A DNA stretch of 64,000 nucleotides, taken from NCBI RefSeq assembly GCF_000428945.1, contig NZ_AUAX01000014.1:124001-188000 (forward strand), read 5' to 3'. Origin of the DNA: Hamadaea tsunoensis DSM 44101. Lineage in GTDB: Bacteria; Actinomycetota; Actinomycetes; Mycobacteriales; Micromonosporaceae. Below are positions 8,947 to 24,437 of this stretch, one piece after another; the stretch's first letter is position 1; each line of letters starts with the position of its first letter. The notes under the pieces were generated by a model. That model saw nothing but the letters and a program-made list of their open reading frames with translations. It searched no databases and was not told the DNA's origin. The position numbers and the translations under genes are program-made.

Positions 8947-11256
8947 ATGTCCGCTGGTCTGATGAAGTCGGCGGAGGCCGCAGCCTCGCATCGACGGCGG
9001 GCTCACGCACTGGATCGGCGCCGTTGGTGGCGCCCGGAGGATCATCGACTGCGTCGGAAGATGTTGGCGATCTTGGTCCTTCCGGTGGTCATGCTGCTCG
9101 TCATCTCCGGCTTGCTTATCGCAGGGAACGCGGGTGAGGCGGTGGCGGCACGCCGGCTGGTAGCTCTCGCTCGCTTGTCTGCGGCGTCTGGTGAGTTGGC
9201 GTCTCGGCTGTCCGATGAGCGGGCCCAGGCGGCGGTGACGGTGATGGGCGGATTCGGTGATTTCGCTGGTGTGGCGAACGCTGTGGATGCCGCTTCGGCG
9301 TCGTGGCGGTCGGCGCGTCACGCCGTTAGCGATGGCGGCGGGGATGGCGAGGCGGCGCTGCGGCGGGTTGAGGTTCAGCTGGACGGTCTGGTCCATCTTC
9401 GTGAAGAGGCGAGGAATGGCAGGCGTACCGCCTTGTCGGTGGTGGTCTTGCGGTATCAGCTGTTGATTGCGGCGTTGCTTGATGTGCGGCAGACGCTGAT
9501 CGTGGCCGGGGCGCCGGCCGAGCTTGCGGTTCGGGTTCGTGCGGCGGTGGCTCTGTCGCAAGCGGCGGAGTCTGCGGGGCAGTTGCAGGTCAGCGTCCTT
9601 CGGGCGAGCAGGCTCAGTGCGGTGACCCCGGCTGCGGCAGCGCAGATCGCGTCGGAACGGGCGGGCTGGTCGGAGTCGTTGCAGGGCTGGACCACGGGAG
9701 CGCCGCCGGCCTGGCGGGTGCTGCTGGACCAGTCGCTGACCGGCGATGACGTGTTGACCGCGCAGCGCCTGGATGGTGCGGTGAGCCGCACTGCCGTCGG
9801 GGATCGGCTGGTGGTTCCCCTCGCTGATTGGATGTCGGCCCAGAACGGTCGGCAGGAGCGGCTACGGCGGGTGATGGCTGCGGCCGACGCTGCGGTGGTT
9901 GTCGACCTCGCGGCGTGGGGTCGTGAGCGTACGGCCAGCGCAGTGACGACAGGTCTGGTGACGTTGCTGGCGCTGACGCTGACGATTTGGCTTGCGTCCT
10001 TCGTAGCCCGCCGTACGATCCACCGGTTCACGACCTTGCACCGGCAGGCCGTGCTGATGGCTGGATCCGGCCTGCAGAAGGCGGTCCAGGACCTGTCGGG
10101 CCGCTCGGACCTCGAACAGTACGACTCTGTCAGCGCTGCCAAGTTGGTCGCACCGCTACTGGAGGAGACAGGCGCTGACGAGGTCACCGATGTCACTCGG
10201 GCGTTCAACGAGGTGCAGCTGACCGCGCTGGGACTTGCGGTGAGCCAGGTCGTTGCCCGTCGGGCGGTCAGCGGCGCTGTTGTCGACATTGGACGGCGGG
10301 TGCAGCGGTTGTTGCACCAGGTGACCAAGGGTCTGGACGCGGCCGAGGCGAAGGAGACCGACCCGGAACGACTCGGCCGCCTGTTCCACATCGACATGCG
10401 GGCGGCGCTGATCTCCCGGCTGAACTCCAACCTCCTGCTTCTAGGGGGAGTTCCCACCGGCACGCACGGCCGACCCGAATCTCTCAACGACGTCATCCAG
10501 GCCGCTGTCTCGCACGTCGAGGACTTCCAACGCGTCACCGTCACCTGCCGCACCGACATCCTGGTCCGTGATGAGGCAGTCGATGCCGTCGTCCAGGCCC
10601 TCTCGGAGCTGATCGACAACGGCTTGAAGTTCTCGAATGCGCCGGTGCACGTGGAAGCGGCCGTTATCGACGGTACGGCGATCGTGCGGGTCACAGACCG
10701 CGGCGTGGGCATGAAGCCAGACGAACTACCGAAGGCCAATCAGCAGCTGGCTGGCGTACCCGACACCGACCGGCAGGTCCCCGGCTTGCGCCGGATGGGA
10801 CTTCAGGTCGTCGCACTCATAGCCGCACAGCACCAGCTGGACGTGCGGCTGCAAGCCGAGGACATGGGCGGCACGGCGGCATCGATGCACCTGCCTGCCG
10901 CACTGCTACTGCCCGCACCGCCGGCTTCTGCGGATCCGGTCGTCCGCACTGACCTGGTCGGCGCCCGGCGCGGGGTAGTTCCCCGTCCGCTGGATCGCAC
11001 TGACCTCGGCCGCCAGTGGCCGCCGCGCGTGCCGCCGGTCGAGGCGGCCGACCCGGCGACGACCGTGTCCGGGCTGCCGGTACGCCCCAGGTCGCCCGCC
11101 GCACTCGAACCAGCGCGGCGGGTTGTCGTTGCCGCGCCGCGCGATCACCAGGTCCGGGCCGCGTCCCTGGCGGCTATGCAGCGAGTCTTCCGAACCGGCC
11201 GTGCACGCCGGGTCGCCCGTCCATTCACCGAACCTTCGCGAGGAGAACGACCATGA
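8947..11256 (+). CDS. Conservon-type sensor histidine kinase-like protein (CvnA-like)
   Basis: A 769-residue membrane protein. The first transmembrane segment is at about residues 39-60, an extracellular helical region of some 270 residues resembles nitrate/nitrite-sensing (NIT) domains, the second transmembrane segment is at about 334-354, and a HAMP-like linker and HATPase domain follow (N-box E-L-I-D-N-G-L-K-F-S near 554, then D-R-G-V-G-M). The proline-rich tail is unstructured. The dimerisation segment reads L-F-H-I-D-M-R at 479-485, where relatives usually have D-H-x-A-T-R, so the phospho-accepting histidine may be absent. The start is ATG 8947 behind GGGGGAGG (8933-8940). The gene overlaps the roadblock gene by ATGA. 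Confidence 0.85.
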   Translation: MSAGLMKSAEAAASHRRRAHALDRRRWWRPEDHRLRRKMLAILVLPVVMLLVISGLLIAGNAGEAVAARRLVALARLSAASGELASRLSDERAQAAVTVMGGFGDFAGVANAVDAASASWRSARHAVSDGGGDGEAALRRVEVQLDGLVHLREEARNGRRTALSVVVLRYQLLIAALLDVRQTLIVAGAPAELAVRVRAAVALSQAAESAGQLQVSVLRASRLSAVTPAAAAQIASERAGWSESLQGWTTGAPPAWRVLLDQSLTGDDVLTAQRLDGAVSRTAVGDRLVVPLADWMSAQNGRQERLRRVMAAADAAVVVDLAAWGRERTASAVTTGLVTLLALTLTIWLASFVARRTIHRFTTLHRQAVLMAGSGLQKAVQDLSGRSDLEQYDSVSAAKLVAPLLEETGADEVTDVTRAFNEVQLTALGLAVSQVVARRAVSGAVVDIGRRVQRLLHQVTKGLDAAEAKETDPERLGRLFHIDMRAALISRLNSNLLLLGGVPTGTHGRPESLNDVIQAAVSHVEDFQRVTVTCRTDILVRDEAVDAVVQALSELIDNGLKFSNAPVHVEAAVIDGTAIVRVTDRGVGMKPDELPKANQQLAGVPDTDRQVPGLRRMGLQVVALIAAQHQLDVRLQAEDMGGTAASMHLPAALLLPAPPASADPVVRTDLVGARRGVVPRPLDRTDLGRQWPPRVPPVEAADPATTVSGLPVRPRSPAALEPARRVVVAAPRDHQVRAASLAAMQRVFRTGRARRVARPFTEPSRGERP

Positions 11257-11687
11257 CCGCGCTCAGCGAACAGCTCACGGACGAGCCGGGATCGGCCGTC
11301 GACACCGGCCTGGTACTCAAGCTGCTCGACGACGTGGTCGCAGCAGTGCCGGGGATCGAACACATGTTGTCGGTGACCGGCGACGGGCTGCTCCAAGCGG
11401 CCAGCAGCGACGTGCCTCGCGACATGGCCGACACGCTCGCCGCGGTCGTGTCCGGGCTGATCTCGCTGGGCACCAGCGCCGACCCGATGCTCAACGGCGG
11501 TGGCCTGGCGTCGATGGTCCTGGAGTTCCACGCCGGCTACCTGATCGTCATGCCGGTCCCCGACGGAACCCATCTGGCCGCGACCACGAGCGACAATCCG
11601 GACCTAGGCCAGATCAGCTTCGAGCTGATGTCCCTGGCCGAAAGGTTCGGCGCGACCGCGTTGAGGGTCGGTCGCCGGAATGCGTAG
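11253..11687 (+). CDS. Roadblock/LC7 domain protein (CvnB-like)
   Basis: A 144-residue protein matching the roadblock/LC7 proteins of Streptomyces conservons: an N-terminal helix (L-L-D-D-V-V-A-A-V-P-G-I), S-V-T-G-D-G-L, and a glycine-rich strand segment. These proteins bind the partner small GTPase and may act as its regulator at the membrane. AGGAGA precedes the ATG, which overlaps the kinase stop; the 3' end overlaps the GTPase gene by 8 bases. In canonical conservons a DUF742 protein (CvnC) lies between this gene and the GTPase; here none fits. Confidence 0.87.
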   Translation: MTALSEQLTDEPGSAVDTGLVLKLLDDVVAAVPGIEHMLSVTGDGLLQAASSDVPRDMADTLAAVVSGLISLGTSADPMLNGGGLASMVLEFHAGYLIVMPVPDGTHLAATTSDNPDLGQISFELMSLAERFGATALRVGRRNA

Positions 11688-12279
11688 CGCACCACCGGCC
11701 GCGACGTCGTTGAAGGTCCTCGTCGCCGGCGGGTTCGGCGCCGGGAAAACCACCTTCGTCAATGCGGTATCCGATATTCCGGCGGTGACCACCGAAGCCC
11801 CCATGACCGAGGCGAGCGCCGGTGTCGACGACCTGTCGTTCGTGCCCGACAAGCGATCCACAACGGTCGCGATGGACTTCGGCCGCGTCGACCTGGCCGA
11901 TGACATTCACCTGTACCTGTTCGCGACGCCGGGCCAGGAGCGGTTCTGGTTCATGTGGGACAACCTCGCCCGCGGTGCCATCGGCGCGGTCGTCCTCGCC
12001 GACGTCCGGCGCCTGGGCGACTGCTTCGCGGCGATCGACTACTTCGACCACACCCGCGTGCCGTACGTCGTCGTGGTCAACCGCTTCGACGGCGCGAGGG
12101 AGTATCCGGCCGCTGATATCCGCGACGCGCTGACGGTCGACGCGCACGTGCCGGTGCTGTTCTGCGACGCGCGCAGCCGCGACGGAGTCAAGACCACCCT
12201 GATCGAACTGGTGCAGCACCTGCTCCGCCGACGCGGTGTCGCCGCCCCTGATCGGCGGGCTCTGCCCGTCGCCGTGTAA
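11680..12279 (+). CDS. Small GTPase of the conservon type (CvnD-like)
   Basis: A 199-residue P-loop GTPase. The G1 loop G-G-F-G-A-G-K-T-T is at residues 17-25, the G3 motif A-T-P-G-Q-E-R-F is central, and a variant G4 motif N-R-F-D replaces N-K-x-D. The NRFD form is common in CvnD proteins. It would switch between GTP and GDP states in response to the sensor and roadblock protein. It starts inside the roadblock gene and ends 25 bases before the lipoprotein gene of the ABC importer, so signalling and transport genes appear to be one transcription unit. Confidence 0.9.
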   Translation: MRSAPPAATSLKVLVAGGFGAGKTTFVNAVSDIPAVTTEAPMTEASAGVDDLSFVPDKRSTTVAMDFGRVDLADDIHLYLFATPGQERFWFMWDNLARGAIGAVVLADVRRLGDCFAAIDYFDHTRVPYVVVVNRFDGAREYPAADIRDALTVDAHVPVLFCDARSRDGVKTTLIELVQHLLRRRGVAAPDRRALPVAV

Positions 12280-12304
12280 CCCCTGCGATCAAAGGAACCC
12301 CTTC

Positions 12305-13522
12305 ATGACCTCCCCTTCCCTGCGGCGCATGCTGACCACCGTCGCGGCCGCAACGCTCGTGGCAACTGCCGGGTGTAGCGGCTCCGCACTCGATGACCAT
12401 CCCGACTCTGCCGCGGCCGCGTTGCCGATCGGCATGGTGGCCGCCCGGACCGGCGTCTACAAAGCGGTCGGCGACGATATGATGCACGGCTTCCAGCTCT
12501 ACCTGGATCAGCACGGCGGCAAGCTCGGCGGCCGACCGGTCAACCTCATCGTGGAAGACGAGCAGGCCGGCGGCGAACCGGCCCGCACCGCCGCGCAGAA
12601 GCTGATCACCGCCGATCACGTGGTCGCGTTGACCGGCATCGTCGCCGGAAACTCCATCTCGGCGGTCAAACCGCTGCTCGACCAGTACAAGGTGCCGCTG
12701 CTCGGCTCGAACGCCCGCCCGGCCGTCGGTACCGAGAAGGGACAGATCCCGGACCTGAACTGGGTGTGGCACACCAGCTACATCTCCACCGAGCCCGGCG
12801 AGGCGATGGGTGCCTACGTCGCCGCCCACGCCGGGGGTCCGGTGTGGATCGTCTGCCCGGACTACCAAGGCGGCTACGACGAATGCGGCGGTTTTCAGAA
12901 GGCGTTCCTCGCCGCCGGCGGAAAGGTGGCCAACCCCGACGGGAAGATCGCCTGGACGCCGTTCCCCAGCACGACGAACTTCCAGCCGTACCTGACCGCG
13001 ATCCGGGACTCGGACGCCGCAGCGGTCTACACCTTCTACGCCGGCGGATCCGCGATCGACTTCGTCAAGCAGTACGCGCAGTTCATCGGGCCGAAGATTC
13101 CCTTGTACGCAGCCGGCTTCCTCACCGAGGGATCAGTCCTCGCCGCCCAGGGCGACGCCGCGAAGGGCATCCGCAACAGCCTCAACTACTCCCCGGACCT
13201 GTCCAACCCAGCCAACAGCAAGTTCGTCGCCGACTACCAGTCCAAATACGGCAGCCTGCCGACGACGTTCTCGATGGCGTCGTTCGACGCGGCCGCGGTG
13301 CTGGACAAGGCCATCGCGGCCGCGGCCCGCGGGGAGGTCACCGCGGCGTCGATCAACGACGCGATCGGCGCCGTCGGCCAGATCGACTCCCCGCGCGGCG
13401 TGTGGCAGTTCTCGCTCAAGACCCACACCCCGGTACAGACCTGGTACCTGCGCGAAGTGCGGATGGACGGACCGGTCCTCAACAACATGCTCGTCCAGGA
13501 ACTCGGCACCCTGGGCGGCTGA
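12305..13522 (+). CDS. ABC importer substrate-binding lipoprotein (LIV type)
   Basis: A 405-residue protein with a lipoprotein signal peptide (lipobox ending T-A-G-C, lipidated Cys24). The mature part resembles the periplasmic binding proteins of branched-chain amino acid and amide importers (peripla_BP_6 type): G-M-V-A-A-R-T-G near the start and V-E-D-E-Q-A-G-G-E-P further on. It captures the ligand outside the cell and delivers it to the permeases encoded downstream. AAAGGAA precedes ATG 12305. The conserved family covers amino acids, urea and aromatic compounds, so the ligand is not predictable. A long hairpin follows the gene. Confidence 0.88.
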   Translation: MTSPSLRRMLTTVAAATLVATAGCSGSALDDHPDSAAAALPIGMVAARTGVYKAVGDDMMHGFQLYLDQHGGKLGGRPVNLIVEDEQAGGEPARTAAQKLITADHVVALTGIVAGNSISAVKPLLDQYKVPLLGSNARPAVGTEKGQIPDLNWVWHTSYISTEPGEAMGAYVAAHAGGPVWIVCPDYQGGYDECGGFQKAFLAAGGKVANPDGKIAWTPFPSTTNFQPYLTAIRDSDAAAVYTFYAGGSAIDFVKQYAQFIGPKIPLYAAGFLTEGSVLAAQGDAAKGIRNSLNYSPDLSNPANSKFVADYQSKYGSLPTTFSMASFDAAAVLDKAIAAAARGEVTAASINDAIGAVGQIDSPRGVWQFSLKTHTPVQTWYLREVRMDGPVLNNMLVQELGTLGG

Positions 13523-13549
13523 CCACAAAGGACCTTACGGCACCTCCCC

Positions 13550-13622
13550 TGGGGTGGGCGGGTCCGGCGCCGCGAGCGCCGTTGAGCCGGCGTACCCGAC
13601 CGGCGCCGCCCCGCCCACCCCA
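13550..13622. terminator. Long intercistronic inverted repeat
   Basis: TGGGGTGGGCGGG at 13550-13562 is perfectly complementary to CCCGCCCACCCCA at 13610-13622. The 47-base loop contains further GC-rich symmetry (CGGCGCCG). There is no T-run. It lies 28 bases after the binding-protein stop, inside the operon, so partial termination or 3' protection of the binding-protein mRNA is more likely than full termination. Confidence 0.6.
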
Positions 13623-13657
13623 CCTTCCGCACAGACCACGAAAGGCACCGATCACCA

Positions 13658-14440
13658 ATGACCGCCGGCTACGCGTTCACAGGTACGAAGGCCGTCCCCG
13701 ACCAACTCGCCGCCCTCACCGAAGGCTTCGACCCGTTCACCCGCCGATCCCTGTCCACCATCGGGATCGTGCCCGGTTGGCAGGTCCTGGAGGTCGGTGC
13801 CGGGACGGGCACGATCGCGAGGTGGATCGCCGACCAGCTCGGCACCACAGGCATCGTGTCGGCCACCGACATCGACACCCGCTACATCCCGAGCCACCGG
13901 GCCATCACCGCATTGCACCACGACATCGTCACCGGGGAGCTTCCCGCCGACTTCTACGACGTAGTCCACGCGCGTCTGGTACTCATGCATCTGCGCCAGC
14001 GTGAAGAGGTCGTGCGTCGCCTGCTGGGGGCGCTGCGGCCAGGGGGCGTGCTGGTGCTGCACGAGTTCGACTGCACCGTCCCGCGCGCGGTGGTGTGTGG
14101 GGATAACGACCAGGTGGACCTGTTCGCCAAGGTCGTCGACGGCATCAACTGCGTCCTGGACGATGCCGGGGCCCGGCTGGACTGGGGAAGCACCGCCGCC
14201 CGCGTCCTGGTTCGCCAGGGCTTCACCGGCGTGACCGTGACCGCGCACGCCGAGAGCTTCGTCGGCGGCAGTCCGTGGGCGCGGCTCGGTGCGATCAACA
14301 CCATCCAGCTCGCCGACCGGCTGCACGGCTGCGGGTTGAGCGCCAACGACCTGTACGCGTTCCGGATGATGATGGACGATCCGCGGTTCTGCGCGATGTC
14401 GTACCTGATGACCTGCACGGTCGGGCGGCGTCCGGCGTGA
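13658..14440 (+). CDS. Class I SAM-dependent methyltransferase
   Basis: A 260-residue protein. SAM-binding motif I is V-L-E-V-G-A-G-T-G-T near residues 46-55, an acidic residue ends the second strand (T-D-I-D), and D-V-V-H-A-R is the motif-IV region, as in UbiE-like small-molecule methyltransferases. It probably methylates a small metabolite in the cytoplasm. It is embedded between the binding protein and the permease of an ABC importer and overlaps the permease gene by GTGA, which ties its activity to the imported or sensed ligand. Substrate unknown. Confidence 0.88.
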   Translation: MTAGYAFTGTKAVPDQLAALTEGFDPFTRRSLSTIGIVPGWQVLEVGAGTGTIARWIADQLGTTGIVSATDIDTRYIPSHRAITALHHDIVTGELPADFYDVVHARLVLMHLRQREEVVRRLLGALRPGGVLVLHEFDCTVPRAVVCGDNDQVDLFAKVVDGINCVLDDAGARLDWGSTAARVLVRQGFTGVTVTAHAESFVGGSPWARLGAINTIQLADRLHGCGLSANDLYAFRMMMDDPRFCAMSYLMTCTVGRRPA

Positions 14441-15291
14441 GCATTGTGGGGATCGCTGACGCCGCCGCCATCGGGCTGCTGTACTTCGTGATCGCGTCCG
14501 GGCTGACTCTCATCCTGGGCTCGTTGCGGATACTCAGCCTCGCCCACGGCAGCGTCTACCTGGCCGGCGGCTATCTGGCCTGGCTACTGCACGCCGACAC
14601 GCCCAGCGGGTTCGTGCTCGCGTGCGGTGCGGCGATCCCCACCGGCATCGCTATTGGCGGGCTGTGCGCGGCAGTGACCTGGCCGCTGCGTGCGTACGGG
14701 CACCTCGCTCAAGCTCTGGCCACCCTCGGGCTCAGCCTGATCGGCGGCCAGCTGATCGCGGCGGCCACCGGCGGAACCTGGTTGCCGGCCAAGCCACCAC
14801 CGCCGCTGGCCGCCGTTATCAACCTGGCCGGCCACCGATATCCGGCCTACCGCCTGGGATTCATCGCCGTCGCCGCTGTGATCGCCGCCGGCCTGTGGTG
14901 GGTAATGACCCTTACCCGCGCCGGGATCGTGGTCCGGGCGGTCGCCGACGACGCGCAAATGGCTGCCTCCACCGGCATCCGGCCGTCATTCGTCCACACA
15001 GGAGTGTTTGCGGCCGGGACGACGTTGGCGGTACTGGCCGGAGTGCTGGCCGCGCCGATCCTCCCGGCCGGCCCTGGCGTGGATGAACAACTGCTGGTGT
15101 GGAGCCTGATCATCGTGGTCCTCGGCGGCCCCGGCGACCTACGTGGCGCTTTGGCCGCATCGCTGGCGGCGGGAACGGTGTCGGCGATCGGCGTGGTCGT
15201 CCTGCCCACCCTCGCCCCATTCCTGCTCCTCGTACTGGTACTGGTAGCCCTCGTGGTGCGCCCGGCCGGGCTCGGACGGAGCCTGGCATGA
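14437..15291 (+). CDS. ABC importer permease, LivH type
   Basis: A 284-residue polytopic membrane protein with about eight hydrophobic segments. The early segment G-L-T-L-I-L-G-S-L-R-I-L-S-L-A-H-G-S is the typical LivH N-terminal signature, and E-E-Q-L-type/G-G-P-G-D-L near the C-terminus matches the family EAA-like region that contacts the ATPases. The start is GTG 14437 overlapping the methyltransferase stop. It forms the channel with the LivM-type protein that follows. The start was chosen from the overlap; the upstream frame is a shadow. Confidence 0.88.
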   Translation: MSIVGIADAAAIGLLYFVIASGLTLILGSLRILSLAHGSVYLAGGYLAWLLHADTPSGFVLACGAAIPTGIAIGGLCAAVTWPLRAYGHLAQALATLGLSLIGGQLIAAATGGTWLPAKPPPPLAAVINLAGHRYPAYRLGFIAVAAVIAAGLWWVMTLTRAGIVVRAVADDAQMAASTGIRPSFVHTGVFAAGTTLAVLAGVLAAPILPAGPGVDEQLLVWSLIIVVLGGPGDLRGALAASLAAGTVSAIGVVVLPTLAPFLLLVLVLVALVVRPAGLGRSLA

Positions 15292-16223
15292 GGCGCCGCA
15301 ACCTTGCGCGTCCGGCCGCGCTCATTGTGGCGGTGCTAGCGGTGCCGTTCGTGGCCGACGCGTACGCCACCACGGTCGCCGCCCGGATCCTGGCCCTCGG
15401 GCTGTTGTCGGTCGCCGTGCACCAACTGTCGGCCCGCCCTCATCTGGCGTCGCTGGGACACGGCGCCTACTTCGGCGCCGGCGCGTACGTCACCGCCGTC
15501 CTCGACCACGCCGGGATGCACCTCGGGCCGGTGCACCTGGCCGCCGGCGCCGCCACGGGGGCGGCCGCCGCCGGCGTGGCCGCGGTCGGGCTGGCCCGAC
15601 TACGGGGCCTCGGTTACGTGCTGGCCAGCCTCACCGTAGGGCTGCTCGCCGCGACCATCGCCGTCAGCTCCCGGACGGTGACCGGTGGCAGCGACGGCAT
15701 CAGCGCCGGCCCGCCCGTCTTGTGGCCGGGAACCGGCCGCCTGCAAGGAATCGGGCCGACGTACCTGTGGATCGCCGCGATCGTGATCGCCGCTGGGCTT
15801 CTGCTGGCCGCGCACGCCCGCTCTCCGCTGGCGATCGTGCTGATCGGGATCGGCGACGCCGAGCAGCGGATGCGGTCGATCGGCTACCCCGTCGGGCGGG
15901 TGCTGTGGACCGCCCACGTGATCTCCGGCGCGACCGCCGCGACGGCCGGGGTGCTGTGGATGCACGCCACCGGCTACATCGCCCCCGCCGATCTCGGCCT
16001 GTCCACCGCGGCCGTCGCCCTGGCCGCGGCGACGATCGCCGACCAGCGCGGCCTGATCGCCACCATCGCCGCCACCGGCGTACTCGTCCTGGCCCGCGAC
16101 GTCGCCACCAGCTACCTGCCGCCGGCCGGATTCGGGCCGCTGTGGCTGGGCGTACTGCTCCTCGCCCTCGCCTACGCCCCGCTCGCCCGTCGCCTGCGCG
16201 CCCCACGGGAGGCCACGGTATGA
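15288..16223 (+). CDS. ABC importer permease, LivM type
   Basis: A 311-residue polytopic membrane protein. The segment L-A-S-L-G-H-G-A-Y-F-G-A-G-A-Y is the LivM hallmark, followed by multiple hydrophobic helices and the T-G-G-S-D-G-I region. It pairs with the LivH-type permease. It starts at ATG 15288, overlapping the previous stop, and ends overlapping the first ATPase gene. It is somewhat shorter than typical LivM proteins, as is common for actinomycete relatives. Confidence 0.88.
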   Translation: MRRRNLARPAALIVAVLAVPFVADAYATTVAARILALGLLSVAVHQLSARPHLASLGHGAYFGAGAYVTAVLDHAGMHLGPVHLAAGAATGAAAAGVAAVGLARLRGLGYVLASLTVGLLAATIAVSSRTVTGGSDGISAGPPVLWPGTGRLQGIGPTYLWIAAIVIAAGLLLAAHARSPLAIVLIGIGDAEQRMRSIGYPVGRVLWTAHVISGATAATAGVLWMHATGYIAPADLGLSTAAVALAAATIADQRGLIATIAATGVLVLARDVATSYLPPAGFGPLWLGVLLLALAYAPLARRLRAPREATV

Positions 16224-16921
16224 CCGGCAACCTCCTCCTGCACGTCGACCGAGTAACCCACCGCTACGACAACCTGGTGACCGTCGACAATCTCAGCCTG
16301 CCGCTCGAATACGGCCAGCGGCTCGCGCTGCGCGGCGCGAACGGCTCCGGCAAGACGACACTGCTCAGCCTCATCGACGGGACCCTCACACCCGCGTCGG
16401 GCCGCATCATGTTCGCCGGCAACGACATCACCACCTGGCCGCCGCACCGGCGCGCGGCGTTCGGCATCGCGCGGGTCTTCCAAACACCGCAGGCCGCCGC
16501 CCGGCTCAGCGTACGCGCCAACATCCTGCTCGGCGTGCGCCAGCACCGCCACCAGGGCCTCAAGGCCCTGCCCATGACCGCGGCCATGGCCCGCGAACTG
16601 GATGCGAACGCCTACGAGATCGCCGCGTGGGTCGGCCTGACCGGCTTGGCGGACGTGCCCGCCGGGCTGCTGTCCTACGGCCACCGCCGCCAACTCGACC
16701 TGGCGATGGCCCTGGCGATCGAGCCCGTGCTGCTCCTGCTCGACGAACCGACCGCCGGGCTATCACCGGATGAGACCGTCATCATCACCGGGCTGCTGCG
16801 CGATCTGCCGCCCCGCATCGCCTATGTGCTGGTCGAACACGACACGGTGGTCGCCGACCGCACCACGACGGCCGCCGTCCGCCTCGGACCGACCGCCGAC
16901 AATACGCAGGTGCTGCGATGA
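16220..16921 (+). CDS. ABC importer ATPase, LivG type
   Basis: A 233-residue ABC ATPase. Walker A G-A-N-G-S-G-K-T is near residues 37-44, the signature is L-S-Y-G-H-R-R-Q rather than LSGGQ (normal for LivG), Walker B is L-L-L-L-D-E-P-T-A-G-L-S, and the switch histidine is in V-E-H-D. R-V-F-Q-T-P provides the Q-loop. It powers uptake together with the LivF-type ATPase. ATGA overlaps join it to both neighbours. Confidence 0.92.
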   Translation: MTGNLLLHVDRVTHRYDNLVTVDNLSLPLEYGQRLALRGANGSGKTTLLSLIDGTLTPASGRIMFAGNDITTWPPHRRAAFGIARVFQTPQAAARLSVRANILLGVRQHRHQGLKALPMTAAMARELDANAYEIAAWVGLTGLADVPAGLLSYGHRRQLDLAMALAIEPVLLLLDEPTAGLSPDETVIITGLLRDLPPRIAYVLVEHDTVVADRTTTAAVRLGPTADNTQVLR

Positions 16922-17589
16922 CCCGACCTGTTGTCCAGCTGGAGCGGGTCACCGGCGGCCACGACCGCCACCAGGTCCTGCACGACATCACCATGACCCT
17001 GCACCGTGGGCAGATCGGCCTGCTGACCGGCCGCAACGGAGCCGGCAAGACCACCCTGATCTCCACCGTGGCCGGACACCTGCCCGTCACCGGCGGCCGC
17101 ATCCTGCTGCACGGCCGTGACATCACCCGCCAGTCCGCCTACGCGCGGGCACAGGCGCAGATTGCTGTTGTCCCGCAAGGCAAACGGCTGTTCGGGTCAC
17201 TGACCGTCGCCGAGCATCTTGCCCTCACCGGCGCCCCGGCCACCGTCCAAGCGCAGATCCTCGACCTGCTGCCCGCGCTGCGCGACAAGCAGCGCTCGCG
17301 TCCCAGCCAGCTGTCCGGCGGCCAGCAACAGATGCTCGCCATCGCCCGCGCCATCGCGATGCCGCCCGCGGTCCTGCTCCTCGACGAACCCGCCGAAGGA
17401 CTCGCCCCGCCGGTCACCGCAGCGCTCGTCGACATCATCACCATCCTGGCCGAACGGGGAGCCGCGGTCCTGATCGCCGACCATGCCCGCTTCTGGCCCG
17501 CCAATACGACCTGGCACCTCGACCGCGGCCACCTCACACCCGCCTGCCAGCACACGACCGTCCATCCGCAGACCCTGGAGATGCGCTGA
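16918..17589 (+). CDS. ABC importer ATPase, LivF type
   Basis: A 223-residue ABC ATPase. Walker A is G-R-N-G-A-G-K-T-T, the Q-loop V-V-P-Q-G is a LivF trait, and the full signature L-S-G-G-Q-Q-Q-M and Walker B L-L-L-D-E-P-A-E-G-L follow. The H-loop is A-D-H-A. It completes a five-component importer. The stop codon overlaps the ATG of a very small gene (TGATG at 17587-17591). Confidence 0.92.
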   Translation: MTRPVVQLERVTGGHDRHQVLHDITMTLHRGQIGLLTGRNGAGKTTLISTVAGHLPVTGGRILLHGRDITRQSAYARAQAQIAVVPQGKRLFGSLTVAEHLALTGAPATVQAQILDLLPALRDKQRSRPSQLSGGQQQMLAIARAIAMPPAVLLLDEPAEGLAPPVTAALVDIITILAERGAAVLIADHARFWPANTTWHLDRGHLTPACQHTTVHPQTLEMR

Positions 17590-17753
17590 TGCCCCTGGAA
17601 CTCGTCACCCCGCCGATCGGCACGCTCGCCGACTGCCGCACCTGCGGCCGGCTGGCTACCTGGGACGCCGTGCACGGCTGGATGCACGTGGCGACCGGTC
17701 ACCCGCCCGACACGCCGCCGCATCCGGCCAGCATCGACTGGGCGCCCCGATGA
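17589..17753 (+). CDS. 54-residue protein with a Cys-x-x-Cys pair
   Basis: A short frame from ATG 17589 to TGA 17751-17753, joined by TGATG to the LivF stop and by ATGA to the next gene. The protein contains C-R-T-C-G-R followed by W and H-G-W-M-H, the look of a small zinc-binding treble. Its coupling on both sides is the main evidence that it is translated. Function unknown; it could be a metal-binding accessory or a regulatory peptide of the transport operon. Confidence 0.6.
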   Translation: MPLELVTPPIGTLADCRTCGRLATWDAVHGWMHVATGHPPDTPPHPASIDWAPR

Positions 17754-18427
17754 ACCGCCCCGGCCGGGCCCGCCAGCGACGGGTCCTCGCGTGCTGTACG
17801 GCCGACTGGGACCCCGATCCGGCCGAGGACCTCGGTGAGTTGCCGCCGTTCGACATGGATGCTCTTCGGACCCGCGCTGCCGCCGGGGACTTCCGGCCGA
17901 TCCGCTGGACCCGGCACCTGCGCGTCGCCGTCCACCAGCTGCTGCACTGCCGCGGCGACCTGCGCAGCATCACGTGGGCGTTCGGGCCGGTGTTCTGGCC
18001 GTTTCCCCGACACGCCAGGCCGACAGTGCAGCCGGACCCGACCGGCCGCGTCTCGTCGGACCCACCACGATCGGTCACCGTCCAGCCGATCACGGATCCA
18101 CCCACCGGCAGCCGGGCGACAGCGTCGAACGATCTGATGTGGACAGACGTGCCGCCGGGGATCGACATGGCCCAGCTGCGCGTGCGAGCCGCCGCCGCCG
18201 ACTACGAGTTCCTGTCCTGGAGGGTCCACCTGTACGTCGCGATGGAGATCACCGGCAGCCACCTTCGCCTGCGGCACTGGCGGCTCGTCCGCGACTGCTG
18301 GGCGGCCGTGGTGACCTGGCCCGCGCAATACGCCCGCCACCAGCGCCGCGCCCAGCACCACGCCGCCCGCCGGGCCGCGGCCCTGGCCGACATCACGCAA
18401 CCGGCGACGAGCGGAGACCGGCGATGA
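17750..18427 (+). CDS. Unknown protein with two copies of an internal repeat
   Basis: A 225-residue protein I do not recognise. Residues about 35-84 (M-D-A-L-R-T-R-A-A-A-G-D, then W-T-R-H-L-R-V-A, ending F-G-P-V-F-W) and about 144-190 (M-A-Q-L-R-V-R-A-A-A-A-D, then W-R-V-H-L-Y-V-A, ending R-D-C-W) align as a duplicated domain. A proline- and serine-rich linker separates them. No signal peptide or membrane segment is evident. The start ATG 17750 overlaps the 54-residue gene, and the end overlaps the next gene by ATGA. It belongs to the conservon-importer operon. Confidence 0.75.
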   Translation: MNRPGRARQRRVLACCTADWDPDPAEDLGELPPFDMDALRTRAAAGDFRPIRWTRHLRVAVHQLLHCRGDLRSITWAFGPVFWPFPRHARPTVQPDPTGRVSSDPPRSVTVQPITDPPTGSRATASNDLMWTDVPPGIDMAQLRVRAAAADYEFLSWRVHLYVAMEITGSHLRLRHWRLVRDCWAAVVTWPAQYARHQRRAQHHAARRAAALADITQPATSGDRR

Positions 18428-19275
18428 GCGCGTACCCGAAGGTGTTCCCAGCCCCAGCTGCCAACGCCCTGCGCGACCTGGGCGTAGAGCTACAACGGCG
18501 CCATGTGACCTGCTACCTGCCCGGCCGACGCGCGTACTACGGCACGTATCAGCAGCAGCGGGTCGTGGTCACGGTCCGGCTGCTCCTTCGACCGGACGCC
18601 GTCGCCAGCCATAACATCGAGCAAACGCTGTACCACGCGGCTGCCGGCGGGGACTGCCCGCTACCGCTGCCGACTGCGATATACCTCGACGAGTACGTCA
18701 CGGTCGCCGCCGCGTTCAGCCAGCCGACCCCATCGGACAGCGTCTCCGAGGCGGCGTTGGTCGATCTGCTCGACCGGCTGAACTGGCTGCACACCTGGAC
18801 CCCGCCGCCACCGCACGACCAACCGCTGCCCGAACCGCCGATCGCCAGCACGCTGTCGAGGTACCACCAGTGCGGCCTGCTGCGCCAAAGTACCGCCGCC
18901 GCGATCCACGCGGTTGTCGGCGTCAAACCTCGGCGACGGCTCGAACTCGGCGACGGCCCGCTCGACCGATGCCAGTTCAACCCAACCGCGCTCAGCGCGC
19001 TGTTCGGACCGTTCGACGCCGGCTGGCGGCTGGCCGGCTACGACTGGGCGGAACTGCATCTGCGCTTCGCCGACACGCATCCGTGGCTGGCCAAGGAACT
19101 CATCGAACGGTCCGAACGCGCCAACCTGTCGGTCACCTACGCCGCGAGCCTCGTCCTTGCCGCCTGCCGGCAGTTGTGCCGCGGAGGCATTGACCCACAA
19201 CGGGAGCAACGACTTCGTGGGCAGCTCGAAGCCGCCCAACGCCGCCTATATCTGCTCTACGAGGCGTCGCTATGA
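18424..19275 (+). CDS. Unknown protein, possibly a degenerate APH-like fold
   Basis: A 283-residue cytoplasmic protein. Its outline recalls APH-fold kinases: an N-terminal beta-rich part, an I-E-Q-T-L-Y-H-A segment like the N-lobe helix, and L-L-D-R-L-N-W-L-H like the helix before the catalytic loop. No HGD or D-W-E motif is present, so catalysis of that type is unlikely. The gene is linked by ATGA overlaps to both neighbours. The fold suggestion is inference from pattern only; otherwise it is a conserved-looking hypothetical protein. Confidence 0.7.
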   Translation: MSAYPKVFPAPAANALRDLGVELQRRHVTCYLPGRRAYYGTYQQQRVVVTVRLLLRPDAVASHNIEQTLYHAAAGGDCPLPLPTAIYLDEYVTVAAAFSQPTPSDSVSEAALVDLLDRLNWLHTWTPPPPHDQPLPEPPIASTLSRYHQCGLLRQSTAAAIHAVVGVKPRRRLELGDGPLDRCQFNPTALSALFGPFDAGWRLAGYDWAELHLRFADTHPWLAKELIERSERANLSVTYAASLVLAACRQLCRGGIDPQREQRLRGQLEAAQRRLYLLYEASL

Positions 19276-19619
19276 GAGATCCCACCGCCACCGCCACCGC
19301 CACCGCGAATGCGTGGCGCTGGCACGAGATGCGGCAATCCATCGCCGCGCGCTGCCTCCTGCTGTGGCTGTTCACCGGTGCGATGCCAATGGCGATCATC
19401 GCCTGGCAGACCGCCGACGATCCGCTGTACGCCCTACGCTGGCGCGTCCTGCTGGTCGGCGTCGTCCCGGCCGCCGCCCACACGGTGAGCGTCGGATATG
19501 CCCTCGGTGTCCTGGCCACCCGCGACCCGGCCGTCTCCCGCATACGCGCGCGCTGGCAGGCCCTCACGTTCGCCCTCGGCGTCGCCACGTATCTGATCGC
19601 CGCAGCTACCGACCCGTAA
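19272..19619 (+). CDS. Small integral membrane protein
   Basis: A 115-residue protein with three hydrophobic stretches at about residues 26-46, 57-78 and 94-112, consistent with three transmembrane helices. The N-terminus carries a Thr-Ala repeat. It overlaps the previous gene by ATGA. No family is recognised. Its place in the importer-signalling operon suggests a membrane accessory role, but this is only context. Confidence 0.7.
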   Translation: MRDPTATATATANAWRWHEMRQSIAARCLLLWLFTGAMPMAIIAWQTADDPLYALRWRVLLVGVVPAAAHTVSVGYALGVLATRDPAVSRIRARWQALTFALGVATYLIAAATDP

Positions 19620-19748
19620 CACCTCTCAACCCCGCTTTGCCGGCCACCGTGCCCGATGGACAAGCAGAGCCCGACCAACCCCAGTGCGCTCCCGTTCCTC
19701 GCCATCGGCACCAGCACCGACCAGGTCTCAACTTCGGAGAAGCAACCC

Positions 19749-20747
19749 ATGCCCACCACCGCCCGCGCCGCCGTGGATGCGCGACCCGTTGCCCTCGGCA
19801 CCGTCGGATCGCGCCGCCCGCCGGCCCGCGTGGTCGTGCCCCGCGGGTGCATCGACCCCGCGATGTGGCAGGCCGCAGTGCGCCTGCTGGAACGCCACAC
19901 CGGCGACGACAGCTGCCCGTCCTGCCGCCGCGTCTGCCCCTACGCGGCGATCTGCCGGGCCGGTCTCGACGTCGCTCAGGGACTGCCGACCCGGCACGAC
20001 ACCTGGTGGTGGCACCAAATGCAGCAACACCATCAACATCGCGTCCGCCTGGTCATGCCACCGACCACCGACCCCGCCCGCATCCACCCCGCCCTACCCG
20101 CCTACCTGCACCACCTCCACGAGCACTGCGCACCCCTCGCCGCCGCGCGCGAGGCCGGGCACGTCGTGCTGTCGTCGTTTCAACCCCGGCCGTCCTCCGC
20201 TGCCGATGTGTTCGCCAAGATCTACGCCGCCGCCGAAGGTGTACGCATCCGCCGTCGCAGCGACGCCGGCCGCCACGCCTGCGCCGTGCTGGCCTGGCTC
20301 GGCCCCACCGCCGCCGACAACCACAACGACCTCATCGCCTACCCGGCCCACCTCGCCCGAGCCCTGTACGCGCCAACTGGACTCGTGATCGCCGACTTCG
20401 CGCCCGGCCCACCACGGCCCAGCCGCCGCGACCAACCCATACCGGCCCCGCCGATCGGACTGGTCATCATCCGCGTCGGCGTACCCGCCGACCGGCACCT
20501 GATCGGCCCCACCACCAACCCGCAGCTGATCCCGGCCCTCGACGACGACGGCCACGACGTCATCTCTGCCACCCTGACCCGATCGCGCGGCAGCCTCACC
20601 CCGCGCAGCGCCTTCCGCCAACTCGAACTGCATGTCCTTGCCCGCATCGAACAACAACCACCACCCGCTGCGGTCCCGCCGTCGGCGGTGCCCGATCGTC
20701 CAGCGCGCCGGCTCCGCCGCCGATCCACCGGCCAGCCCACGCAATGA
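19749..20747 (+). CDS. DUF6875-like protein with a cysteine cluster
   Basis: A 332-residue protein. A cysteine cluster C-P-S-C-R-R-V-C-P-Y-A-A-I-C occurs near residues 56-69 and may bind a metal or an iron-sulfur cluster. The C-terminal part contains G-L-V-I-A-D-F-A-P-G-P-P and a later G-L-V-I-I-R-V-G-V-P-A-D, which resemble the DUF6875 pattern as I remember it. The start ATG 19749 is preferred because GGAGAAG lies 6 bases upstream; an in-frame ATG at 19656 lacks a binding site. Function unknown. Confidence 0.65.
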   Translation: MPTTARAAVDARPVALGTVGSRRPPARVVVPRGCIDPAMWQAAVRLLERHTGDDSCPSCRRVCPYAAICRAGLDVAQGLPTRHDTWWWHQMQQHHQHRVRLVMPPTTDPARIHPALPAYLHHLHEHCAPLAAAREAGHVVLSSFQPRPSSAADVFAKIYAAAEGVRIRRRSDAGRHACAVLAWLGPTAADNHNDLIAYPAHLARALYAPTGLVIADFAPGPPRPSRRDQPIPAPPIGLVIIRVGVPADRHLIGPTTNPQLIPALDDDGHDVISATLTRSRGSLTPRSAFRQLELHVLARIEQQPPPAAVPPSAVPDRPARRLRRRSTGQPTQ

Positions 20748-20945
20748 CCGCGACCCGTCAACGAGCGGCACCACCCCGCAGTCGTGCACCGCCGACCGAG
20801 GCCGACGCGCGCTCGCCGCCGCCATGTATAGCCGCCATCGTGCGTTGCGCAGCCGCCAGCGTCCGACCTGCCGTGCCCGCAAGGCCAGGCAGTATCCCGG
20901 CACCGCCGTCGGACACCCATCCACACACCACCGAGGAAGGACTCC
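20748..20945. other. Intergenic stretch without a convincing gene
   Basis: 198 bases. A frame beginning at ATG 20744 is open but runs out of frame into the next gene with shadow-like composition (mostly Arg, Pro, Ala), so I do not annotate it. A strong AGGAAGG for the next gene is at its end. Confidence 0.4.
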
Positions 20946-21899
20946 ATGTCCACCAGTACAGCCCCTACGCCGCCGCGCCCCGCCGCGCCCAAGCTGTCTC
21001 GCCGCGCCATCGTGGCCATCGTCGCGGCCGTTGTTCTGCTCGCCGTCGCCGCGATCGTCTTCATCCTCCCGGTCGCGCGGCACCCGGCCGCCATCGCAAC
21101 CTCACCCAGCGCTTCCGCGAGCATGGGCAACCCGCAGCCGTCCACCGGCGGAACGATGCTGACGACGCTCGCCCGCGACACCGCCGCGCTTCCCGCCGCG
21201 CCGCGGACCGGCACCTACGAATACCTGCGGCACATCATCTGGGGACCCAAAGAAAAGATGGTCTACGCCGTCGATGAACGAACCTGGCGCCAGCCCGACG
21301 GCATCGCCAAGTACGCGGTAGACCGCCACCAAGACTTGGCCGCCAAGGGCTTCGACCCGATGACCGCCAACCTCGACTTCGCCAGCGGGGCCGCCAACGT
21401 CCGCGTTCTCGACGCCATCCAAGACCCCGACATCCACGACCAGCCCGACATCATCCTGGCCGACAGCGGCGACCCCGTCGCCCAACTGAACTGGTACCTA
21501 AACACCGCCCGCAACAGCCAAACCGCCGACACCCAACGACAAATCCGGGACCTGATCGACATCTACCACCACCAGCTCGTTCCGCCGAAGTTGCGCGCGG
21601 CGATCCTGCTGGCCCTCGCCCAGCTGCCCGACACGACCTCCACCCACCACAGCGACACCGACCCCCTGCACCGCGACAGCATCGCCTTCACCACGACGTT
21701 CACCGACAGCGACGTCACCATCCTCGTCGACCCGGCCACCGGGCTGATCAACGCCGTCCGGGAACGGTTCAAGGGCCGACTCTGGGAGTACACACTGTTC
21801 TTTCCCGCGGAGTGGACCGCCATCCGCGGACCGGGCCCCGCTCAGCCCACACCGGCATCCACCATCCACCCGTCCACCGCACCGGCCCCGCGAACCTGA
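20946..21899 (+). CDS. Membrane-anchored protein, CU044_5270-like
   Basis: A 317-residue protein with a short cytoplasmic N-terminus, one transmembrane segment at about residues 21-43 and an exported domain. The exported part has the layout of actinomycete CU044_5270-family proteins: T-Y-E-Y-L-R-H near residue 89, and V-D-P-A-T-G-L-I near the end. Such proteins are often encoded with ECF sigma factors and may sense envelope state; no sigma factor is near here. AGGAAGG precedes ATG 20946. The family call is tentative. Confidence 0.65.
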   Translation: MSTSTAPTPPRPAAPKLSRRAIVAIVAAVVLLAVAAIVFILPVARHPAAIATSPSASASMGNPQPSTGGTMLTTLARDTAALPAAPRTGTYEYLRHIIWGPKEKMVYAVDERTWRQPDGIAKYAVDRHQDLAAKGFDPMTANLDFASGAANVRVLDAIQDPDIHDQPDIILADSGDPVAQLNWYLNTARNSQTADTQRQIRDLIDIYHHQLVPPKLRAAILLALAQLPDTTSTHHSDTDPLHRDSIAFTTTFTDSDVTILVDPATGLINAVRERFKGRLWEYTLFFPAEWTAIRGPGPAQPTPASTIHPSTAPAPRT

Positions 21900-21968
21900 T
21901 CCGGACACCCGTCCGTCGCGTGACCTCGACGACGGGGCCAGCGTCGCAGGACACGCCGCCGACCGGCA

Positions 21969-22202
21969 GTGACTGATGCCGAGACCGCACGTCGGCGCGC
22001 TGAGCGCCTTCGCCGCAATAGCCGGACTCGCCGCGCGGTGGCGTACCCGCACCGGTACGCCACCGCCGTCCGGCGACCGACACCGAAGCAGACGCCGCCG
22101 GCCACTCGCCCCGTCGCGAAGCTCACCCCCCACGCTGCCGAGCTTCAGCACCTCCAGCGCTACCGACCGCCACACCCAGACCAGACCGGAGACCCCGCAT
22201 GA
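21969..22202 (+). CDS. Small basic protein of unknown function
   Basis: A 77-residue frame from GTG 21969, rich in Arg, Ala, Pro and Thr, with an N-terminal helix-prone segment (T-A-R-R-R-A-E-R-L-R-R). Its TGA overlaps the ATG of the alpha/beta hydrolase gene, the same coupling seen across the operon, which is the main support. The ribosome binding site is weak and the composition is also compatible with a chance frame. Confidence 0.4.
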   Translation: MTDAETARRRAERLRRNSRTRRAVAYPHRYATAVRRPTPKQTPPATRPVAKLTPHAAELQHLQRYRPPHPDQTGDPA

Positions 22203-23098
22203 TCGTCGAAATCGACGGCCCGATCTCCTACGTAGAACACAGCGGCCCCCCCGACGCGCCGCGAGTGGTCTACCTCCACGGGCTCGGCGGCTCGCTGAGC
22301 AACTGGAACGACCTCGCGCTGCGGATGCGAGCGCATGTCCGCGGTACGGCACTCGACCTGCCCGGATTCGGCCGGTCGCCGTCCGCCGGGCGCCGCACCA
22401 CCGTCACCGCGAACGCGAACCTGGTCGGCCGGTTCCTGAAGACCGTCGTGGGCGAACCGGCGATCCTCGTCGGCACCTCGATGGGTGCGCTGATCTCGAT
22501 CCTGCTGGCCGCGACCGAACCCGACCTCGTCCCCGCGCTCGCACTGATCGCACCACCATGGCCGCTGACCGGACCGCCACGAGTACATCGCGACGTTGGC
22601 CGGTCCGCGCTCGTCAGCGGCATACCCGGCCTCGGCGAACTCATCCTCGCACGGCGTCTGGCGACCGTTCCCGCCCACCAGCGCGTCGAGCAAACGCTAC
22701 GGCGCTGCTGCGCCGACCCGACCCGCGTCAGCGCAACCATGCGGCAAGCAACCATCGCCGACGAAGAACTCGTCACCCAGGAAGGTTTCCGCCGAGCCCG
22801 CGACTACTTGTGCGCCGCCCGCTCGATCGTGCGTACCCTGGCCCAGCGTCACACCCACACCCGACGCGTGGCCGACCTGCCGCAGCCCGTCCTGCTCATG
22901 CACGGAACCGCTGATCGCCTCGTCCCCGTCGCGGCCGCGCGAGCCGCCTCGAACCTCTTGCGACACGGCACCTACCGCGAGGTTGCCGCCGGGCACATCG
23001 CACACATGGAAACGCCCGACGACATCGCTGCGGCCCTCTTAGCGTGGCTGGCCACCGTCACCCCACAACACCGACCCGAGTTCAACGGTATGCAGTAA
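22199..23098 (+). CDS. Alpha/beta hydrolase
   Basis: A 299-residue enzyme. The oxyanion-hole motif H-G-L-G-G is near residues 27-31, the nucleophile elbow G-T-S-M-G near 96-100, the acid is in H-G-T-A-D-R-L-V-P, and the catalytic histidine is in G-H-I-A-H-M-E. All members of the triad are present. It hydrolyses an ester, amide, lactone or C-C bond in a small molecule. It may process a ligand imported by the upstream transporter. No signal peptide is seen, so it acts in the cytoplasm. Confidence 0.88.
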   Translation: MIVEIDGPISYVEHSGPPDAPRVVYLHGLGGSLSNWNDLALRMRAHVRGTALDLPGFGRSPSAGRRTTVTANANLVGRFLKTVVGEPAILVGTSMGALISILLAATEPDLVPALALIAPPWPLTGPPRVHRDVGRSALVSGIPGLGELILARRLATVPAHQRVEQTLRRCCADPTRVSATMRQATIADEELVTQEGFRRARDYLCAARSIVRTLAQRHTHTRRVADLPQPVLLMHGTADRLVPVAAARAASNLLRHGTYREVAAGHIAHMETPDDIAAALLAWLATVTPQHRPEFNGMQ

Positions 23099-23195
23099 AC
23101 GGTCACGACCGACGATGGCACCACTCGATGCCCGGACCCGGACCGCTCCGGCACCGATCCAATCGCAGCTGTTCCGTCCAGAATGAGGAGCGCTC

Positions 23196-24437
23196 ATGAG
23201 CACGGCCGCCGACGTCCCGACCGACCTGGACCCGAAAACCCTTCGCCGGCAGCTGGCCGAGCAACTCCTCGCCGCCGGGCACGTCACCCGCGACACCGTG
23301 GCCGCCGCGTTCCGGACCGTACCCCGACACCTGTTCATGCTCGACGGCGTAGACCTGGCGACCGCCTACGACGCCGACCAATCGCCCGTCACCAAACGCA
23401 ACGAGGCCGGAGCGGCGACCTCGTCAGTGTCCGCGCCGTGGCTGCAAGGCCGCATGATCGAACAAGCGGACATCCGACCAGGGATGCGCGTGCTGGAGAT
23501 CGGCAGCGGCGGCTACAACGCGGCCCTGATCGCCGAAGTCGTCGGCCCCACCGGGCGGGTCGTGACCGTCGACATCGACCGCGACATCACCGACTGCACC
23601 TCCCGCCGCCTGGACGCCACCGGATACGGGCGGATCCGAGTCGTGCAAGCCGACGGCAACCGGCGCATCCCCGGCGAGCACGAGCTGTTCGACGCCATCG
23701 TGGTGACCGTCGGAACCCACAGCGTGCCGCCCGCGTGGATGGAGCAGCTCGCCCCGCACGGGATCCTCGTCGTCCCGCTCGATATGGGCGGCACCACCCG
23801 CTCGATCGCGTTCCGCCGCGACGGCAACCGCCTGGAGAGCCTGAGCGCGGAGGTGTGCGGGTTCGTGCCCATGCAGGGAGACGGCGAGCACGCCCCGACC
23901 ATCGTCTCCGTCCCCGGCACGCAGGCAGCAGCGGCAACCCTACGATTCGCCGGCCCGGCACCCGCCGGGCTCAACCTGCCCGACAACCTGCTATCTGGGC
24001 CGCCCGTACAGCTGTGGTCCGGCGAGACGATCGGCAACAGCACCGACTGGTCCGACCTCTACTTGTGGTTCTCCTGCTACATGCCCGGCGCCTGCACCGT
24101 CACCGTGCCCGACGACAGCCCCCTGCGTACGCCCGGCCAGTTCTTCTTCCCCAAAGGCAACGCCCGCGACGACAGCCTGGCCGTGTTCGTCATCCGCAGA
24201 CTCGACGACGGCAGCGGCTGCGAATGGGGCGCCACCGGGTACGGGACGCACGGCGTAGTGGCCGCCGAGGAAATGATCAGCCACATTCAACAATGGAACC
24301 GCACGGCCGGCCCGACACGCCCGCCTACCTACACCTTCATCGCGAAACCGAACCGACCGCAGCTCCAACCGCACACCACCGCCCTTGCTCAACACCACGG
24401 CGCGCTCCTGATCCACTGGCCCACCAGCACGGACTAA
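23196..24437 (+). CDS. FxLD-system methyltransferase (PIMT-like)
   Basis: A 413-residue protein resembling protein-L-isoaspartate O-methyltransferases. Motif I V-L-E-I-G-S-G-G-Y is near residues 96-104, T-V-D-I-D is the acidic ribose-binding strand, and a long C-terminal extension ends W-P-T-S-T-D. The arrangement matches the methyltransferases of FxLD lanthipeptide systems, where the enzyme modifies an Asp of a precursor peptide. No precursor peptide, dehydratase or cyclase gene is visible nearby, so here it is an orphan or acts on another protein. ATGAGGAGCG just upstream supplies a GAGG binding site for ATG 23196. Confidence 0.8.
   Translation: MSTAADVPTDLDPKTLRRQLAEQLLAAGHVTRDTVAAAFRTVPRHLFMLDGVDLATAYDADQSPVTKRNEAGAATSSVSAPWLQGRMIEQADIRPGMRVLEIGSGGYNAALIAEVVGPTGRVVTVDIDRDITDCTSRRLDATGYGRIRVVQADGNRRIPGEHELFDAIVVTVGTHSVPPAWMEQLAPHGILVVPLDMGGTTRSIAFRRDGNRLESLSAEVCGFVPMQGDGEHAPTIVSVPGTQAAAATLRFAGPAPAGLNLPDNLLSGPPVQLWSGETIGNSTDWSDLYLWFSCYMPGACTVTVPDDSPLRTPGQFFFPKGNARDDSLAVFVIRRLDDGSGCEWGATGYGTHGVVAAEEMISHIQQWNRTAGPTRPPTYTFIAKPNRPQLQPHTTALAQHHGALLIHWPTSTD

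Follow-up and report, generated by a model that had tools for sequence, protein, structure and literature searches.

Conservons are actinobacterial G-protein systems made up of a sensor kinase (CvnA), a roadblock protein (CvnB), CvnC and a small GTPase (CvnD), with Cvn8, Cvn9 and Mfp as described examples. The available part of PMC13343842 defines such systems by a fixed cvnA-B-C-D spacing and treats the signal sensed by conservon kinases as an open question; it also describes the stimulation of CvnA8 by CvnF8, making additional sensory partners of CvnA an accepted idea. In the available part of PMC4316618, a C-terminal LPxR motif is the signature of conservon kinases, and orphan roadblock genes bordered by those of conservons are noted, with no importer named there. 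Here we describe a row of genes at positions 8947-24437 of a 64,000-nucleotide stretch of Hamadaea tsunoensis DSM 44101 DNA (the window; positions 124001-188000 of contig C12, in a genome of 9.48 Mb on 68 contigs), in which conservon-type kinase, roadblock and GTPase genes directly precede a complete LIV-type importer. The linkage between signalling genes and importer is real, it is present as a variant of the conservon across two actinomycete families and, as far as our literature search reaches, it is unreported.

The row opens with a CvnA-like sensor kinase (8947..11256; all genes of the row lie on the plus strand) that carries a NIT extracytoplasmic domain (8.4e-18), a HATPase_c domain (2.6e-13) and the C-terminal LPxR-type tail LPVR, and the gene next to it encodes a CvnB-like roadblock (Robl_LC7) protein (11253..11687). 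A CvnD-like small GTPase follows (11680..12279; ATP_bind_1, 2.2e-29), with a P-loop GGFGAGKTT and the motifs ATPGQ and NRFD read from its sequence and 52-59% identity with five GTPases from conservons in this genome. Behind these stand a LivJ substrate-binding protein of the lipoprotein type (12305..13522; Peripla_BP_6, lipobox VATAGC), a class I S-adenosylmethionine methyltransferase (MT1, 13658..14440), which in relatives either separates livJ from livH or stands behind livF, the permeases LivH (14437..15291) and LivM (15288..16223), both matching BPD_transp_2, and the ATPases LivG (16220..16921) and LivF (16918..17589), both matching ABC_tran. By profile matches the LIV/HAAT set is complete, with its binding protein, two permeases and two ATPases.

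With this LivJ as bait, 190 of 300 genomes of the same family matched at the chosen cut. A kinase or roadblock gene adjoins livJ at all 30 of the best loci (our own included), and kinase, roadblock and livJ genes stand together in all 18 relatives read over 14-20 kb, most commonly in the order kinase-roadblock-(GTPase)-LivJ-LivH-LivM-LivG-LivF-(methyltransferase). The exceptions are two loci where LivM, LivG and LivF were not recognised at this position, one with a divergent kinase pair, and a congener with the GTPase ahead of the kinase. Even at the weaker end of the match list, 17 of 20 loci have both kinase and roadblock genes. A scan of named genomes with a LivJ alignment gave 177 relatives, the best 80 of which were kept; these 80 named loci cover Streptomyces, Kitasatospora, Micromonospora, Catellatospora, Actinorhabdospora, Dactylosporangium, Phytohabitans, Plantactinospora and Allorhizocola, the rest being Streptomycetaceae or Micromonosporaceae without a genus name, and these are the two families covered. 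Beside livJ we find the roadblock gene in 75 of the 80 and the kinase gene in 70, and the misses are all due to contig ends, which come within about 130 bases of livJ for the five without roadblock and about 1000 bases for the ten without kinase. Kinase and roadblock genes overlap by a median of 4 bp and lie at most 30 bp apart in 66 of 69 cases; the livH/livM distance was left unused, being an artefact of the start codons picked within long open frames. Because the bait favours its own LivJ lineage, these counts show how constant the module is and not how common, and a phylum-wide search (six matches in 396 genomes), run at a very strict cut with few candidates scored per genome, is likewise no measure of prevalence.

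An earlier note on this DNA had proposed that the signalling module senses or controls the importer ligand or a compound made from it. The families it named (kinase, roadblock, GTPase, LIV importer, methyltransferases and hydrolase) are all confirmed by profile matches, and the co-occurrence of the two modules in relatives, whose absence the note would have taken as refuting, holds in the named loci wherever the upstream sequence suffices. Linkage of kinase, roadblock and LivJ genes in the named loci and in the weaker matches speaks for a functional connection between the signalling genes and the importer; for placing the hydrolase and the FxLD-system methyltransferase in the conserved unit there is no such support.

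A count independent of the bait used profile searches for Robl_LC7 and Peripla_BP_6 in 13 genomes, of which ten have roadblock genes; two adjoining roadblock fragments of one genome were merged. Of 69 roadblock genes, 15 have a LIV-type binding-protein gene no more than 5 kb away, where gene numbers and genome sizes predict 1.05. On this genome-wide count we reject a chance clustering of common genes. The pairing comes in three forms: a collinear one, like that of the window, in 5 genomes; a divergent one beside a conservon kinase in 6; and a convergent one behind a conservon GTPase in 4. Each is inherited in up to six genomes, so the 15 pairs are not independent and a Poisson probability for them is too strong; despite these orthologous loci, three arrangements of one pairing make chance hard to invoke. 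Conservons with an adjoining LIV-type binding-protein gene on the opposite strand occur on two other contigs of the same genome, C40 (L113) and C5 (L116), and in G001, G002, G003, G005 and G006, and are conserved in congeners.

The module is an importer-coupled variant of the conservon. Its conserved row holds a CvnA-like kinase, a CvnB roadblock protein and a LIV importer with its own membrane-anchored binding protein; the GTPase and methyltransferase are optional and CvnC is absent. Two places after cvnA, where CvnC (DUF742) would stand, there is none in the window, nor is there a DUF742 gene on contig C12; the genome as a whole carries five clear DUF742 genes, all away from the window locus, against nine roadblock genes. 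A CvnC profile built from conservon loci matches 26 of 28 control loci; among the 80 named and 18 other loci it has no match inside the module, and its hits at 7 of the 80 each belong to a separate downstream conservon. With DUF742 missing, the window set is not a complete conservon, and a definition by cvnA-B-C-D spacing would be only partly satisfied by the LIV module. A GTPase stands between roadblock and livJ, as in the window, in 9 of the 80 named loci; another five of the 80 are too short to judge. Cytochrome P450 and helix-turn-helix (HTH) genes lie ahead of the kinase in 15 of the 80 (among them L139, L149 and L157), none of which has a GTPase in the row.

The kinases, counted after fragments shorter than 400 amino acids (aa) and duplicate loci had been dropped, carry the LPxR tail in 77 of 78 LIV loci, compared to a mean of 12.9 in shuffled tails. 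In the alignment, the column of the phosphoacceptor His holds His in 50 of 77 LIV rows, Asn in 18, Ser in 5, Leu in 3 and Met in one, the window kinase, leaving 27 of 77 without His; among 34 other conservon kinases the column is His in 33 and Asn in one. The nearest relative, from Catellatospora, keeps the His, and all fifteen P450/HTH loci have Asn or Ser. A regular-expression count of His motifs (42 of 89 LIV kinases without) was replaced by this aligned column, which shows fewer losses. The kinase tree, a quick, unrooted maximum-likelihood tree of 70 kinase cores from a short search, needs at least five His changes, one perhaps in a non-LIV row, and all 27 His-less LIV rows keep the N-box Asn, the Asp and Gly of G1 and the Gly of G2. 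As read from the aligned sequences, the phosphoacceptor His is lost several times with the ATP-binding boxes intact, which argues that some of these kinases may signal without phosphotransfer. In the same tree, 47 LIV kinases and 8 others form one set (99% by the Shimodaira-Hasegawa-like approximate likelihood ratio test, SH-aLRT) with 15 other CvnA rows outside it; five of those 8 belong to conservons with an adjoining divergent or convergent binding-protein gene. The LIV label requires two changes on the tree against a mean of 19.6 in shuffles. With long branches and no root, the tree suggests, rather than shows, a single origin of the LIV kinases. The parts never lost are thus the kinase ATP site, the roadblock protein and the binding protein with its importer.

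The likely ligand was approached by comparing LivJ with solved structures, whose ligands we name as in the entry titles. By sequence profile, a Rhodopseudomonas palustris binder comes first (4evq, E 1.8e-69), with leucine-type proteins following from 1.2e-25, and in the sequence-family ranking the aromatic-acid binders of R. palustris hold four of the first five places. A fold search with the predicted LivJ model (mean predicted local distance difference test score, pLDDT, 84.7) gave five R. palustris 4-hydroxybenzoate/vanillate entries at Z 44.8-45.8, a Sphaerobacter protein at 43.4 and the best leucine binder at 40.4. Aromatic-acid binders rank ahead of leucine binders by both sequence and predicted fold; LivJ may still be a generic branched-chain amino acid binder, but our best guess is that it binds an aromatic acid of the hydroxybenzoate kind.

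Open reading frames and Pfam/NCBIfam profiles led us to accept 17 plus-strand genes in 8947-24437. Ten of the 16 junctions are overlaps (eight of 4 bp, one of 1 bp and one of 8 bp) and the other six are gaps of +25, +135, +129, +198, +299 and +97 bp. Genes are tightly packed from the kinase, roadblock, GTPase, livJ and methyltransferase through livHMGF and on to 19619, and 3' of 19619 every junction is a gap of 97-299 bp. The earlier note had seen about 18 genes with mostly 4-bp overlaps in a single long operon ending with the FxLD methyltransferase. There are indeed 17 genes and eight 4-bp junctions, but these make up only 8 of 16; the operon itself is not borne out, since the wider gaps and the lineage-specific gene content 3' of 19619, outside the conserved core, leave its extension to 24437 unproven. 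What is shared with relatives runs from the kinase through LivF and includes the methyltransferase, and this is probably the limit of the module. Within it, the gap between livJ and the methyltransferase holds a 73-nt hairpin (13550..13622, plus strand; z = -3.81, with none of 200 shuffles as stable) that separates livJ from the remaining importer genes. In the gap at 19616-19750, folding against shuffles found no comparable structure (z = -0.70), and a promoter and terminator scan gave no more signals than shuffled sequence. Binding proteins are usually made in excess over the permease, and a hairpin 3' of the binding-protein gene would fit such an excess. Internal terminators in ABC-importer operons are the subject of PMC9045158, as its available part indicates.

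The rest of the tightly packed row consists of g10 (17589..17753), a 54-aa Cys/His-containing protein of no known sequence family, with copies after livF in Catellatospora (70% identity) and on contig C39 (57%); g11 (17750..18427), without a family match; g12 (18424..19275), which has no sequence family and by fold comparison resembles aminoglycoside phosphotransferases with a degenerate catalytic loop; and the small hydrophobic protein g13 (19272..19619), also without a sequence family and the last of the packed genes. The HGDxxxxN-type loop of g12 is kept in distant relatives and degenerate in the window and C39 copies, and its fold matches include TvaE (8jsu). Beyond the conserved module lie g14 (19749..20747), without a family match; g16 (20946..21899), weakly CU044_5270-like (89.7 bits, cut-off 100); an alpha/beta hydrolase identified by profile (22199..23098); and the FxLD-system methyltransferase (23196..24437; PCMT/FxLD, TIGR04364, 386 bits, cut-off 320), which has no adjoining precursor. 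A congener (locus L018) also has the hydrolase, g12 and g16. Contig C39 of the same genome as the window (L014, 25000-44999) has a second copy of g10-g13 and the hydrolase, with an FxLD methyltransferase, and next to these stand a lantibiotic dehydratase and a true FxLD precursor; this cassette also holds a LivG relative of 62% identity. Such recurrence makes the 3' half look like an added cassette; the hydrolase and FxLD methyltransferase, placed by the earlier note in the unit, have relatives on C39 and in the congener and none in the module of other genera.

In many soil actinomycetes importer and binding protein share one row with the signalling genes, and they therefore probably belong to the signalling machine. 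Our preferred reading from sequence comparison, in which we have about as much confidence as doubt, is an importer-coupled conservon variant with LivJ and its importer as sensory input. The lipoprotein LivJ would bind an extracellular small acid, probably aromatic and hydroxybenzoate-like, and the NIT/ATPase kinase would be changed either by ligand-loaded LivJ or by the working LivHMGF complex. The kinase might then alter the roadblock protein, in His-less lineages by an ATP-driven change of shape instead of a phosphorelay, and the roadblock protein may set the GTP/GDP state of a local GTPase, as in the window type, or of one encoded elsewhere, as in the Streptomyces type. The importer could also take the ligand up. 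We count the stimulation of CvnA8 by CvnF8 as a precedent for LivJ as such an additional input. Several points weigh against this reading. Three of the 20 weaker-match loci have a LivJ relative without kinase and roadblock genes, and for another four, of more distant families, neither gene appears in the visible 1-1.6 kb upstream of the LivJ relative, indicating that the importer can exist alone. In 66 of the 75 loci where the roadblock gene is visible, the row has no GTPase, and the proposed output is missing locally. The inputs CvnE and CvnF go with kinases lacking NIT, according to the available part of PMC13343842; the kinase here already has a NIT domain, so a LivJ sensor may be unneeded. 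The proposed ligand comes from likeness in sequence and predicted fold, and a short tree search with long branches weakens the support for a kinase lineage.

The main rival turns the scheme around: kinase and roadblock protein, with or without the GTPase, would gate, place or regulate LivHMGF, and uptake would follow a signal sensed by NIT. The NIT domain itself agrees with this, as does the fact that roadblock and kinase stay with the importer where the row GTPase is absent. We know of no precedent, however, for a roadblock protein controlling an ABC importer, and the two arrangements with an opposite-strand binding-protein gene beside a complete conservon fit a binding-protein input better; we regard the importer as output as somewhat unlikely. 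A bolder idea, which we judge unlikely, is that in most copies a G-protein module shed its G protein and that the roadblock protein, with an ATP-binding and sometimes His-less pseudo-kinase, was re-purposed to sense through the importer or gate it directly, the roadblock's standing partner then being the importer and not a Ras-like GTPase. Plain co-regulation, with a shared promoter and the same conditions of expression without physical or informational coupling, would account for importer relatives lacking signalling genes and is compatible with the window hairpin that sets livJ apart from the downstream genes. A linkage that persists across two families and many genera, in three arrangements of binding-protein gene and conservon and with a shared kinase lineage, makes it quite improbable. 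Lastly, the row could be part of a lanthipeptide-type (FxLD) biosynthetic locus, with a peptide product that would be imported or regulated by the transporter and signalling genes. The row's 3'-terminal FxLD methyltransferase and the C39 cassette speak for this, as does the control of an adjacent lanthipeptide cluster by Cvn8 of S. coelicolor, described in the available part of PMC8510531. Yet the window has no FxLD precursor (TIGR04363), whose only match in the genome is on C39, profile searches found no dehydratase among the 17 genes, and fxlM has one weak match in the 80 named loci, leaving such a locus very doubtful.

Around the row, an NsdA-family regulator gene (7207-8556) lies divergently ahead of the kinase, and an NsdA-like gene is divergent at the equivalent Catellatospora site. 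Downstream are a RES-domain protein with a small gene ahead of it (27198-28366) and a PezT-like protein (43887-44912). The stretch 34543-62276 holds conjugation-like genes (VirB4-like, VirD4-like, MobF relaxase), a transposase of the IS1380 type (38665-40125) and an open frame of 3193 aa (46792-56373) that matches nothing in Pfam, and the row thus adjoins a probable mobile element. Plasmid searches turned up no copy of the row. Rfam and tRNA scans of the window gave no match.

Our search of the open-access literature, limited to main texts, brought up no paper that links a LIV importer to conservon or roadblock genes. The available main text of PMC13343842 contains none of the terms 'ABC transporter', 'substrate-binding' or 'branched-chain', and PMC3123327, in its available part, contains both topics and treats them apart. 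Because the ligand of its binding protein can be screened in vitro, a linked kinase-roadblock pair of this kind makes the question of conservon input testable in common Streptomyces, and copies without CvnC and GTPase reveal which conservon parts are dispensable.

Compared with the conservon, the LIV module shares the LPxR-tailed NIT kinase, the roadblock protein, in the window type a GTPase, and the overlapping A-B-(D) genes, and differs in lacking CvnC and mostly the GTPase, in having a LIV importer and often a methyltransferase, and in the loss of the His in several lineages. The CvnF and CvnE inputs in the available part of PMC13343842 are similar as extra row genes that may feed the kinase, and a P450 gene stands ahead of the kinase in 15 of the 80 LIV loci; here, though, the addition is an entire transporter including its extracellular binding protein, the kinases bear NIT, and the P450 gene is found upstream, accompanied by an HTH gene. 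LIV/HAAT importers and the benzoate-derivative binders of R. palustris have the same five-gene layout and the binding proteins nearest in sequence and fold, without the tie to a kinase and roadblock protein seen here. In LuxP-LuxQ, TorT-TorS and PstSCAB-PhoR a binding protein or importer likewise informs a sensor kinase, but these are classical phosphorelays with a response regulator and have neither roadblock protein nor GTPase.

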